Origin: Phycisphaerales bacterium PN19_bin_20
GTDB lineage: Bacteria; Planctomycetota; Phycisphaerae; Phycisphaerales; UBA1924
Assembly: GCA_021173225.1 (NCBI GenBank)
Contig: JAJOLK010000013.1
Coordinates: 47,212-111,211 of the forward strand
Reading direction: 5' to 3'
DNA: 64,000 nt
In this document: piece by piece, positions 4,177 to 64,000 of the stretch
Layout of the letters: every line of letters begins with the position of its first letter
How positions within the stretch are numbered: the stretch's first letter is position 1
Position numbers and translations under genes: made by a program
Notes under the pieces: generated by a model
What the model saw: the letters and a program-made list of their open reading frames with translations, nothing else
The model's database searches: none
What the model was told of the DNA's origin: nothing

Positions 4177-5159
4177 GTTGGACGCAAAATGCTGCTCATT
4201 ACATGAGGCGTGCAGTCATCCGGGTTATCTGTCTAGGCGCGGTCTTGTTCGCTTTGGGATGTGCGATCGGCGTGGTTGTTGCACAACTTGCCAATCACCG
4301 AGTGCGCACGCACGTGACACAGATCGGCGATCGGACATCTCGACCGAGCTTCAGTGGTGGTCAAGTCGAAGCGGGTCTCAGCGGATTGGGCGGGCTCGTC
4401 CGCCCAGACAGGCTTCCCCGAGACAGCACAGCCTACGCACAGACATACTTCTGGAGTTGGCGACGCGAGTGGCTCGGCAAGGGCTTGCTCACAAGAGGCG
4501 TAGAGGTTGTCACGAGCCAGCGCGTGAGCTATTCCGAGGCCTTACGTTGGGCGCAGCCTCCGGACGCGACCGTGCTGCCAGCAAGCGTGCCGACGTGGTC
4601 TGTCGCTGCGGAAGTTGATCCAGAGTTTGGTCCCGTTGACCTCTGGAGCGAGGTTCGATATGGCTGGCCGTGGCCCATCATCTCATCGCGAACAATGTTT
4701 ACAGAAGCAACCAGCGAGGAGGCCAAACGCCTGACAACCAAGTATGGCGGCGTCAGCGCCACCGGAGGCGGACTGGCGGAAGGTGCGTTGCACCGCATCC
4801 AGCTCTACGGCGGGTTCTACTCGGATTGGTACCAGCGATGGTTTGGACATCCTGAGGGTAAAGTTGGCTTTCTGTCGGGCCGCGTCCTGCTCGGCAACCT
4901 CCTCAAATCCGGCGCGTTCTACGCCGTGTTGCTCTACCTGCTTTATCGCGCGGTCGCGATCGTGCCCTGGGCCTGGCGAGCGCCCCGCAAGCTGCGATCG
5001 TGGCACCGCCTTGGTCGCGGTCTTTGCGGCGCGTGCGCCTATAACCGCCGCGGGCTCACGCCCGACGCCCCCTGCCCCGAGTGCAACGCCGCCCCGCCGG
5101 GCGGACGCTCAGCCCGTGAATACCAGACAACCCTTCGTTCGGAGCCGGAGGCGAGGTGA
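4167..5159 (+). CDS. membrane protein with C-terminal zinc-ribbon-like motif (paralogue A)
   Basis: TM segments VICLGAVLFALGCAIGVVVAQ and FYAVLLYLLYRAVAIV; CGACAYNRRGLTPDAPCPECN; ATG overlaps upstream TGA by 10 nt. Confidence 0.7.
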   Translation: MPVSWTQNAAHYMRRAVIRVICLGAVLFALGCAIGVVVAQLANHRVRTHVTQIGDRTSRPSFSGGQVEAGLSGLGGLVRPDRLPRDSTAYAQTYFWSWRREWLGKGLLTRGVEVVTSQRVSYSEALRWAQPPDATVLPASVPTWSVAAEVDPEFGPVDLWSEVRYGWPWPIISSRTMFTEATSEEAKRLTTKYGGVSATGGGLAEGALHRIQLYGGFYSDWYQRWFGHPEGKVGFLSGRVLLGNLLKSGAFYAVLLYLLYRAVAIVPWAWRAPRKLRSWHRLGRGLCGACAYNRRGLTPDAPCPECNAAPPGGRSAREYQTTLRSEPEAR

Positions 5160-12556: not shown

Positions 12557-12619
12557 CGTTCACCAGGCCCGGCCGTCGATCACAGGGCGTGAGCCGTCAT
12601 TCTAGCGCCAGCCCCCGGC

Positions 12620-14458: not shown

Positions 14459-14762
14459 CGCTTCTAAACCCCTCCGGCCAGCCCGGGATTACCCAAAGCC
14501 CCAAACTCATCACCAAGACGCGTCTGGCAGTCCATCGACTACCCCGCCCAGACTGCTCGAGTTCGTTGCCGGATGGTAAACAGATTCCAAACCGATCAGA
14601 CCTAGAGCCTCACCTGACAGGATCACTGCCGTGTTGGAGTAAGGCCCTGGTCTCCACACATTGTCCACAGGATATCCATACTTTTGACCATGATCGGACC
14701 ATGATCGGCACAGTTGACTGGCCACCGAATCAGCACGTCCGACTTTGACCCTTCGCCCCACC

Positions 14763-61207: not shown

Positions 61208-62569
61208 ATGGCCAGTCGCGGCGGCTCCGGTGTTGTCGTTCTGTCGGTGGTGCTCGGGATCCTCGCGCTTGCGGGGTTCGTTTTGAGCATCGTCTTCTAC
61301 GGTCAGGCGACCAGCGCGCGCGAGCAGCTCGACGCGTACAAGCGCGATGCGCAGGGCTTTATCCGCGACGGGGAGCGCAACAGCGACCAGTTCCGCGAGA
61401 TGCTGCTGGAGGCCAACGGGTCCAACAGCTCGCTGGCGGGGTTCCTGACCGGTCAGTTCCGCGAGCTCTCCAGCAAAGTCAGCGGGGTCGACCGCGAGAC
61501 GCCCAAGAGCCTGACTAGCAAGATCAATGCGGCGCTTGAGCCGCTGGGCAAGGGCAACTTGCTGCAGGGCGTTCAAGAGCTTGGCGGGCAGGTGCTCAAG
61601 CTGCAGCAGGACTTGAAGGAGTCAGACGCTGTCCGGCAGAACGCCGTTGATAGTCTGAGCGTTGCGCAGGACCGCGTCAAGGCGCTCGACGAAAGCCACC
61701 AGGAGACGGTCAAGACGCTGGGCACGACGATCGACACGTACAAGGGCCAGGTCGATACGTACCGGACGGACTTGACCAAGAGCGCCGAGGACATGCGCGG
61801 CGCGGTTGACAAGATCAAGCGTGACGCGGGCGACGAGACGTCGCGGCTGAACGACCGGATCTCGCGGATGACCGACGAGCTGCTGGTAGCGCAGGGCAAG
61901 ATCCGCTCGCTGCAGGCCGCCCGCGGCAAGGACAGCCTCAAGCCCGGCGACGAGGCGACGCTGGTTGATGGCGAGGTCGTGGCGCTGGTGGACGCGGACA
62001 ACACTGTTTTCATCAACCGCGGCAAGAACCAGCGGATGGTGCTGGGGATGAGCTTTGAGGTCTACACCGACGCGCCGGCGATCAAGCTGCAGGCCGACGG
62101 GGGCTACGCGCGGGGCAAGTCGAGCATCGAGGTCATCCGGGTTGACGACAACTCTTCGACCGCGCGGATCGTGCGTAGCACGCGGGGCAACCCGATTGCT
62201 CGGGGCGATGTGATCGTGAACCCCGTGTACGACCCGAGCAAGAAGTACACGTTCCAGGTCTACGGGAACTTCGACACCGACGGGGACGGCCGCGTGACCC
62301 CGGCCGAGGGCGAGGACATCCGGGCGATGGTGGCGGGTTGGGGCGGCAAGCTGACCGAGTCGCTGACCGGTGATGTCGACTTTGTGGTGCTGGGCGAGCG
62401 CCCGGTGGTGCCGCCGGCCCCGCCAAGCGATGCGGCGGTAGAGTTTGTGGACCGGTTCATCCGGGATCGTCGGGCGGCTGAGCAGTACGACCGGCTGCTG
62501 GAGCAAGCGTCGAGCACGTCGATCCCGCTTCTGAACCAGAACCGGCTGATGACGCTGATCGGCCGATAA
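61208..62569 (+). CDS. membrane-anchored coiled-coil protein with C-terminal BRCT-like region containing an EF-hand loop
   Basis: MASRGGSGVVVLSVVLGILALAGFVLSIVFYG TM; coiled coil; KYTFQVYGNFDTDGDGRVTPAEGEDIRAMVAGWGGKLTESLTGDVDFVVLGERP. Confidence 0.7.
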   Translation: MASRGGSGVVVLSVVLGILALAGFVLSIVFYGQATSAREQLDAYKRDAQGFIRDGERNSDQFREMLLEANGSNSSLAGFLTGQFRELSSKVSGVDRETPKSLTSKINAALEPLGKGNLLQGVQELGGQVLKLQQDLKESDAVRQNAVDSLSVAQDRVKALDESHQETVKTLGTTIDTYKGQVDTYRTDLTKSAEDMRGAVDKIKRDAGDETSRLNDRISRMTDELLVAQGKIRSLQAARGKDSLKPGDEATLVDGEVVALVDADNTVFINRGKNQRMVLGMSFEVYTDAPAIKLQADGGYARGKSSIEVIRVDDNSSTARIVRSTRGNPIARGDVIVNPVYDPSKKYTFQVYGNFDTDGDGRVTPAEGEDIRAMVAGWGGKLTESLTGDVDFVVLGERPVVPPAPPSDAAVEFVDRFIRDRRAAEQYDRLLEQASSTSIPLLNQNRLMTLIGR

Positions 62570-62597
62570 CGCTGAGCGACAAGTTGAGCGATCTTCC

Positions 62598-62630
62598 AAG
62601 GGGTGGGCCCGTGCCCACCCTTGTTTATTG
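62598..62630 (+). terminator. probable intrinsic terminator
   Basis: aaggggtgggc-ccgt-gcccacccttg followed by tttatt. Confidence 0.55.
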
Positions 62631-62955
62631 GTAGGTGGAAGAGGCCAGGGCGAAGGGGCGATAGGCAATGGAAGGTGGACGGGGGGGATTGGGCAGTGGG
62701 CGCGGGGGAGTAAGCGGTGGCGAAGGCTCGGCGGAGGGTGGGCCGTGGCGACTTCCGGGGGCGACGGAGAGCAACTGGCGGGTTGTGCCACTGTGGATGT
62801 GCCGAGGTGGTGCATAGGTCCATCGTGCGACATCCAGTTTGGTACACACTCGACCAAGGGGCTGGAGATGGACGTGCGGGACGCGCGCTCGGTTCGGTAT
62901 CTGTGATCTTCTCGGTCGTGCGGCGGTAAGCGCGGCGATGTTGTTGGCGTAAGGC

Positions 62956-62971
62956 TGGCACGGGGATTGTA
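62956..62971 (+). promoter_or_regulatory. sigma-54-type promoter, near consensus (TGGCACG-ggga-TTGTA)
   Basis: -24/-12 spacing correct; -12 GC is GT; lies 44 nt upstream of the 63015 start codon. Confidence 0.5.
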
Positions 62972-63014
62972 ATGAGTGAGGCGAGAGGCTAACGCCCCGC
63001 TGGAGGAGAGAGAG

Positions 63015-63431
63015 ATGATTGGTGTTGCAGCGCGGACCGCGATCGCGGTTGCGCAGACAGAGAGGTCGCTGGCATCAGGCGTGGCGCGAGCCGCGATGAG
63101 GTGCCGTTGGCCGATCTACACACAAAGTGAGCCTGGCATGGTGCGGACGGTGCTGCTGGGTGGCACGCGGGTGCTGATTGTGCAGCTTGATGAGGGCCCT
63201 GGGATGGCGCTGGGGCTGATTTCCAGGCTCAGGGGGCATATTTCGCCGGTTCTGTGTGTGGCGGTGGACCAGGTCGGTGGCGTGCAGCGCGAGATTTCCG
63301 CGCGTCAGGCCGGGGCGGCGGCCTACATTGATGGCGTTGGAGAGTCGGAGGAGATCGAGAGGATCGCCAAAAGCTTGGAGGAGGCCTGCGCCGCACGCGA
63401 GGCTGTTCGTGTCGGCACGCGGGTTGCCTAG
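63015..63431 (+). CDS. small pseudo-receiver-like protein (138 aa), hypothetical
   Basis: ggaggagag SD; TRVLIVQLDEGPGMALGLISRLRGHISPVLCVAVDQVGGVQREISARQAGAAAYIDGVGESEEIERIAKSLEEA. Confidence 0.6.
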   Translation: MIGVAARTAIAVAQTERSLASGVARAAMRCRWPIYTQSEPGMVRTVLLGGTRVLIVQLDEGPGMALGLISRLRGHISPVLCVAVDQVGGVQREISARQAGAAAYIDGVGESEEIERIAKSLEEACAAREAVRVGTRVA

Positions 63432-63463
63432 TTGGTTCTGGTCGGGATGATGGGCCGAAAGCT

Positions 63464-63506
63464 TCGGGACGGGACGACGGGACGACGGGACGACCCGAAA
63501 CGAAGC
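63464..63506 (+). repeat. gggacgac tandem octamers inside an inverted repeat (gcttcggg...cccgaaacgaagc)
   Basis: Direct reading, about 30 nt after the 63431 stop. Confidence 0.7.
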
Positions 63507-63522
63507 TGGCACGACGGTTGCA
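63507..63522 (+). promoter_or_regulatory. sigma-54-type promoter, full consensus (TGGCACG-acgg-TTGCA)
   Basis: Matches YTGGCACGN4TTGCW exactly. Confidence 0.65.
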
Positions 63523-63533
63523 AGGTGAGTATC

Positions 63534-63558
63534 AGAGAAGAGAAGAGAAGAGAAGAGA
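63534..63558 (+). repeat. pentanucleotide microsatellite (agaga/agaag x about 5)
   Basis: agagaagagaagagaagagaagaga, at the predicted transcription start of the adjacent sigma-54-type promoter. Confidence 0.9.
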
Positions 63559-64000
63559 CGGCCTGCGAGTGTGAGTGACCGAGACGATTAAAGAAAATGA
63601 ATGCGGGCTGGATAGATGACGGAACGGTTTGCCTGACAATCAAAGAGCACTCGACCTCACTCGGCGGCCGGCATGGTCACGAATCTGGAGGAGAGCAGGA
63701 ACATCACGACGCGACAACTCCTTCCCCCCTGCTTTTCATCGGAGGAGAGAGGACTGTGTCGGCCGTCGAGTGAATTCGAGTGCTTGATGATGGATGGGTT
63801 GATCGGAGCGAGGTGCTCCGCTGGCAAGTGCAGAGCGGTGTTTGGAAGAGTTGGGCAGTGCAACAGGTCCTTCCTGATCGACGGCTCGCTTCCGCTTCCG
63901 GCGCACACGTGCCGGGCCGGATACGTCACACACACACACCTTCCTCCCTGGGGACTCCTGAACAACCGCCCCGATACACGGCGAGCAGTGAGATGACGGC

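Follow-up and report, generated by a model that had tools for sequence, protein, structure and literature searches.

The right-hand end of the window, by which we mean the whole stretch of 64,000 nucleotides analysed here, carries on its forward strand a small gene for a receiver-like protein preceded by a sigma-54-like motif, a second sigma-54 motif behind this gene, a long hairpin, the 5' half of a further hairpin, and the terminus of a repeat element that coincides with the exact end of contig C41 (111,211 bases). The positions of these features are collected in Table 1. The source genome is denoted G000, and the named relatives are MAGs labelled Phycisphaeraceae or Phycisphaerales.

Table 1. 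Features at the right-hand end of the window (positions are those of the window)
Feature	Position	Strand	Sequence and evidence
Candidate activator-binding (UAS) site	62836..62847	+	AGTTTGGTACAC; 120 bp 5' of the promoter of the small gene; putative UAS role
Sigma-54-like promoter of the small gene	62956..62971	+	TGGCACGGGGATTGTA; single mismatch (-12 GC); ATG 43 nt downstream
Leader segment	62993..63016	+	CGCCCCGCTGGAGGAGAGAGAGAT; 24-nt perfect antisense of the CU-rich candidate sRNA (G000:C26:14484-14507)
Small gene, 138 aa, receiver-like (pseudo-receiver) fold	63015..63431	+	Homologs in 7 relatives, AlphaFold, Foldseek
Consensus sigma-54 promoter (probable) of the hairpin RNA	63507..63522	+	TGGCACGACGGTTGCA; equivalent motifs before hairpins in G003
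(AGAGA)5 run	63534..63558	+	At the predicted transcript start; the repeat as such is not conserved
Long hairpin RNA (predicted)	63640..63790 (CM core 63658-63772)	+	Fold, CM matches, G002 homolog
Apical loop with anti-Shine-Dalgarno-like segment	63700..63727	+	AACATCACGACGCGACAACTCCTTCCCC, containing CTCCTTCC; identical in G002
Purine motif	63741..63751	+	GGAGGAGAGAG; in the hairpin's 3' arm / internal loop
5' half of the second array hairpin, interrupted	63875..63950	+	Truncated CM match; alignment to G003 hairpin 4
Repeat-element terminal 50 bp	63951..64000	+	GGGACTCCTGAACAACCGCC...; identical 50 bp at both C30 ends

The product of the small gene had no Pfam match and no significant sequence match in the PDB. 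Its homologs were identified by homology in G002, G003, G051, G068, G080 and G116, and via the hairpin search in G054, and in each of these genomes the gene is followed by hairpins. AlphaFold modelling of the small protein (eight sequences) gave a confident alternating alpha/beta fold (pLDDT 86.5), and a Foldseek search with this CheY-like fold returned NtrX as the best match, the receiver domain of NtrX matching too, as well as other receiver domains. In the alignment, the phospho-acceptor aspartate is not conserved, the proteins having D, D, E or other residues after strand 3, and we therefore regard the small protein as a pseudo-receiver. A sigma-54-like motif of the TGGCAC type is located 37-55 nt before the start of the small gene in all eight genomes, the copy in the source genome deviating at the critical -12 GC (TTGTA).

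The consensus sigma-54 motif upstream of the hairpin, CTGGCACGACGGTTGCAA, had been placed at 63506-63523 by the initial annotation, and it is present there, with an exact match to the -24 GG / -12 GC element TGGCAC-N5-TTGCW over the core 63507-63522. The exact pattern TGGCACN5TTGCA was found once in the 64-kb window, where 0.05 occurrences are expected, and TGGCACGN4TTGCW has a single exact match in the 3.1-Mb source genome; since the reversed control pattern also matches once, the motif does not exceed chance genome-wide and is in itself no proof of a promoter. Both RpoN (sigma-54) and an activator ATPase are encoded in the source genome, and the position of the sigma-54 motif is conserved in the relatives, together with upstream candidate activator sites. 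In the 3.4-Mb genome of G003, the pattern TGGCACN5TYGCA occurs four times, every time inside the 1.3-kb array locus, with one occurrence before the small gene and three at 50-57 nt before hairpins 1, 2 and 5; the distance from the motif to the hairpin core in the source genome is 136 nt. The equivalent hairpin promoter of G002 has a degenerate -12 element (TTGAT) that deviates at the critical GC, and no good sigma-54 motif was found directly before the hairpins in G080, G116, G068, G051 and G054, so that read-through from the small gene would be needed in these five genomes. Given the related genomes, the motif at 63507-63522 is very probably a working promoter, and control of the array locus by sigma-54 can be proposed with considerable confidence.

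The pentamer run begins about where transcription would be expected to start, as had been pointed out before. The accompanying idea of a contingency promoter tuned by the pentamer is disfavoured by the location of the run downstream of the expected start site and by its lack of conservation: at the equivalent position G002 has only an imperfect purine tract, and G003 has none. Immediately 5' of the sigma-54 motif, a tandem repeat, (GACGGGAC)3.4, at 63468-63494 lies within an inverted repeat (63460-63476 / 63491-63507). Elsewhere in the source genome, an intergenic sigma-54-like motif, TGGCACGCCGCTCGCA, at L076:1544-1559 (G000:C37:36043-36058) precedes the start of a 95-aa ORF by about 120 bp, and is possibly a second sigma-54 target.

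Downstream of the promoter motif, the segment 63640-63790 is predicted to fold into a hairpin of about 150 nt (-82 kcal/mol, z -8.13), and it contains a large inverted repeat (63639-63678 / 63752-63791) overlooked in the initial annotation. The inverted repeat described there instead, ggagc-gaggt-gctcc, does exist at about 63805-63819, but its region does not fold better than shuffled sequences (z +0.49), and it was not seen in G002. Comparison of the DNA with 41 genomes yielded one matching block, in G002 of the same genus, which is 84% identical over 63658-63772; the homologous hairpin of G002 folds at about -91 kcal/mol, and some 40 nt round the apex are identical in the two genomes. The source-genome hairpin was scored at 67.4 and 58.5 bits by covariance models R1 and R2, respectively. 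Its apical loop has CTCCTT in common with the 3' end of 16S rRNA (GGATCACCTCCTTTCT); loops of the ACGACACTCCTTC type are present in most other hairpin copies, and the loop core CUCCUUCC (CTCCTTC) is conserved among the hairpins. The resemblance of this core to the 16S rRNA 3' end suggests pairing with Shine-Dalgarno sequences. The purine motif GGAGGAGAGAG has only two exact occurrences in the window, one in the leader of the small gene and the other in the hairpin, and most other array copies contain GAGAGAGAG or a close variant at the equivalent place. The stem ends GATCGACGGC...GCCGTCGATC are conserved among the tandem hairpins.

The earlier impression that no convincing ORF follows the sigma-54 motif was borne out, as the ORFs tested in 63432-64000 had no Pfam match; a protein-coding reading of this segment was rejected on these grounds and because no matching frame was seen in G002. 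Rfam searches of the window at gathering score were negative, and those of 62500-64000 at E<=5 returned chance matches to other families only. No rho-independent terminator was identified and no T-runs were seen after the stems. Among the readings offered originally for this DNA, that of a sigma-54-dependent small RNA is strongly supported by comparison with related genomes, and that of a long 5' leader belonging to a gene beyond the window finds no counterpart in the relatives, where more hairpins follow and then unrelated genes, such as the convergent UbiX-like gene (assigned by eye) after the hairpins of G002.

The hairpins form a family of narrow distribution. The covariance model built from 16 hairpins of the array loci found two more in G054, a genome that it had not seen, directly behind the small-gene homolog, and its matches totalled 18 hairpins in 8 of the 163 genomes of the family; no further hairpin-containing genome was found among 400 sampled from the order, and both of these large searches were run with stricter filters. 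There is one hairpin locus per genome, and in all eight genomes it is an array of one to five tandem hairpins directly downstream of the small gene. Most array hairpins have loops of the AAYACGACACTCCTTCYTCCC type and GAGAGAGAG in the 3' arm. In the model-fitted alignment, 92.8% of cells pair, and the number of two-sided changes reached 57, whereas shuffles gave 17.9 and slid controls no more than 15; the corresponding numbers for a plain MAFFT alignment were 35 and 11.5. Among the modelled pairs, G·U is found 39 times and A·C three times, which points to selection on the RNA of the array strand, not on DNA and not on the opposite strand. We thus assign the hairpins, with high confidence on these comparative grounds, to a structured RNA family of the array strand.

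Hairpins 3 and 4 of G003 (L046:4597-4723 and 4837-4963) are almost identical in sequence and so point to a recent duplication inside the array. Weak model matches in G016 (E 0.0016) and G120 (E 0.005) are devoid of the loop and were treated as chance. In the latter (L061; G120:C106:94338-94449), a flanking stem also has the ends CGATCGACGGCC...GGCCGTCGATCG round an SRP-RNA-like sequence, as judged by eye, and these ends may form a closing helix shared by structured RNAs of the family. Matches to the loop pattern outside Phycisphaerales (L079, L081, L082 and L083) had no hairpin, and viral contigs contained no copy of the exact pattern.

Behind the first hairpin of the source genome, the segment 63875-63950 can be aligned to the first (5') half of G003 hairpin 4, with GATCGACGGCTCG followed by the CCTTCCTCCC loop, and its covariance model score is weak. 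This second hairpin is cut at 63951 by the repeat element. The terminal 50 bp of the element are found at three contig ends, that of C41 and both ends of C30 (L008:1-50 and 12564-12613), and the window therefore stops at a repeat-element border. The 50 bp are probably the end of an insertion sequence; one of the C30 copies interrupts an ADH_N-domain gene (alcohol/formaldehyde dehydrogenase-like), and the element had no match in viral contigs or plasmids. A leader of an rRNA operon at the contig end was considered and rejected, the 16S gene being on C34 and the 50 bp being common only to the C30 and C41 ends.

The candidate regulator of the locus is an AAA+ activator with Sigma54_activat and HTH_8 domains and no recognised receiver, which is encoded directly upstream in G002, G003 and G068. 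Each of the eight genomes has one orthologous activator (62-70% identity versus 41-52% for other activators); its gene adjoins the small gene in five genomes (G002, G003, G068, G051 and G116), and in the source genome it is on the same contig as the window, about 4.5 kb to the left. Sites of the form TGG[ATC]ACA[GC] were found upstream of the small-gene promoter in G000, G002, G003, G080 and G054, with a background of 0.17 per kb on both strands, and the TGGTACA-type sites of G002 and G003 come in pairs spaced by 18 bp.

At the level of sequence comparison, the locus thus unites a structured RNA of the array strand, a conserved linkage with the receiver-like gene, sigma-54 motifs whose spacing is conserved and one activator ortholog per genome. 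The explanation that we favour, and consider moderately probable, is that sigma-54 RNA polymerase transcribes an array of non-coding hairpin RNAs, siblings arranged in tandem, of which the window contains one complete member, the first, and half of the next. That these siblings have a regulatory role, exerted by base pairing of their loops, is a plausible extension, for which the balance of arguments is about even. In the proposed scheme, the activator, having no receiver domain of its own, would bind the upstream TGGTACA sites and turn on the small receiver-like protein and the hairpin RNAs jointly. Each RNA would have a long stable stem displaying a single-stranded loop of about 25 nt with the anti-Shine-Dalgarno-like core, and the loops would pair with ribosome-binding sites of target mRNAs, leading to repression, and the several copies together would provide a strong dose; a feedback of the small protein on the receiver-less activator is possible. 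Pairing of the apical loop with the leader of the small gene itself was in general no better than in shuffles, so that either the targets are elsewhere or the model is wrong.

A different function for the array is suggested by a candidate sRNA of about 55 nt, GATCTCTCTCTCCTCCAGCGGGGCGCTGTCTAACGATGGCGCCCTGCTTT (L024:2485-2545, plus strand; G000:C26, approximately 14484-14507), which consists of a CU-rich 5' end and a terminator hairpin, is conserved in most family genomes compared and has no Rfam match. The purine motif that occurs in both the hairpins and the small-gene leader (GGAGGAGAGAG / GAGAGAGAG) could serve as an RNA sponge that captures this CU-rich anti-Shine-Dalgarno sRNA (GAUCUCUCUCUCCUCCAGC plus terminator) and relieves its targets, the small gene included. 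Such a role would account for the perfect 24-nt complementarity between the sRNA and the leader, whose duplex has an energy of -56 kcal/mol in the source genome, versus a best value of -36.8 in 300 shuffles. Three species of the genus have duplex energies between -56 and -61 kcal/mol, and G054 reaches -45. A sponge would also fit the restriction of the exact 11-mer in the window to leader and hairpin, and the occurrence of GAGAGAGAG in array loci almost only on the array strand. However, the purine motif is of low complexity and Shine-Dalgarno-like, the leaders of G080, G116, G068 and G051 pair with the CU-rich RNA no better than shuffles (the G000 sRNA sequence being used for these four genomes and for G054), and the conserved apical loop is left unexplained; we consider a sponge unlikely. 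A composite of both functions appears more doubtful still: the array would be two-faced, with the apical anti-Shine-Dalgarno loop repressing mRNAs and the purine internal loop sponging the family-wide CU-rich sRNA, and a split sigma-54 activator would switch both; its pseudo-receiver subunit, a separate protein encoded at the head of the array, would in turn be targeted by the CU-rich sRNA.

The invariable position of the hairpins behind the small gene, together with the lack of good promoters of their own in five genomes, would also be expected of a structured 3' UTR that merely protects or ends the small-gene mRNA and has no regulatory role in trans. The separate sigma-54 promoter motifs before hairpins in G000 and G003, the conservation of the loop sequence beyond the structure, the presence of several copies and the absence of visible T-runs after the stems make this decidedly improbable. 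Long tandem inverted repeats with conserved stem ends might also be DNA elements, such as a recombination site, a MITE-like repeat or a palindromic binding site; but the prevalence of G·U over A·C fits an RNA of the array strand and not a cruciform, and the single locus per genome is tied to sigma-54 motifs, and so little credence can be given to this reading. As little can be given to titration of an RNA-binding protein (CsrA-like or RNase III-type), which multi-copy structured RNAs with GGA-containing segments could bring about, as the copies have no consistent A(N)GGA loop motif and their conserved loop is pyrimidine-rich.

The best reading of these comparisons is that the sibling hairpin RNAs are a new family of sigma-54-dependent small RNAs and that their array is a new regulatory-RNA locus in Phycisphaeraceae-type planctomycetes. 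Our literature search turned up no planctomycete array of this kind, the phrase 'small RNA' is absent from a sigma-54 regulon survey covering Planctomycetota (PMC12316311), and a 2022 survey counted only eight annotated small RNAs in the PVC group (Planctomycetes, Verrucomicrobia, Chlamydiae) (PMC9029176). If this reading is correct, the conserved sigma-54-controlled array, which has an activator and a receiver-like protein of its own, would open a new way to study RNA regulation in the PVC group, and its Qrr-like logic of sigma-54 combined with several siblings would have arisen outside Proteobacteria. The split arrangement of activator and receiver suggested by the array locus is directly testable.

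With regard to known systems, the small protein resembles NtrC/NtrX in being modelled as a receiver fold beside an AAA+/HTH_8 activator without a receiver domain, and differs from them in standing alone, in having no Pfam receiver match and in the lack of a conserved phospho-acceptor aspartate. Among sibling RNAs, SisA-D of the alphaR8 group in Alphaproteobacteria share a 10-mer (PMC12559287), and CcsR1-4 of Rhodobacter are sibling sRNAs (PMC7074977). Like the array, alphaR8/SisA-D, AbcR and CcsR consist of multiple homologous RNAs that share a single conserved pairing sequence. The CcsR1-4 RNAs reportedly have CU-rich loops, and their genes are said to follow a small protein gene. The array RNAs have no sequence or Rfam relation to any of these groups, and are distinguished by their predicted sigma-54 control and by hairpins of about 110-150 nt. 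In Vibrio, the four to five Qrr RNAs are quorum-sensing siblings that repress post-transcriptionally (PMC4211561, PMC8043402); they are under LuxO and sigma-54, according to a reference cited in PMC12559287, and are mostly encoded at distant loci (PMC4211561). The array shares with Qrr the sibling small RNAs, the sigma-54 motifs, an NtrC-type activator and, putatively, repression, and by kind its predicted sigma-54 promoters and its candidate activator would correspond to the sigma-54 promoter and LuxO-type activator of Qrr. In contrast to Qrr, its RNAs have no Rfam match to that family, lie in tandem behind a receiver-like gene and form one very long hairpin per copy. The array is therefore comparable to Vibrio Qrr in logic, but is unrelated to it and not a member of that family.
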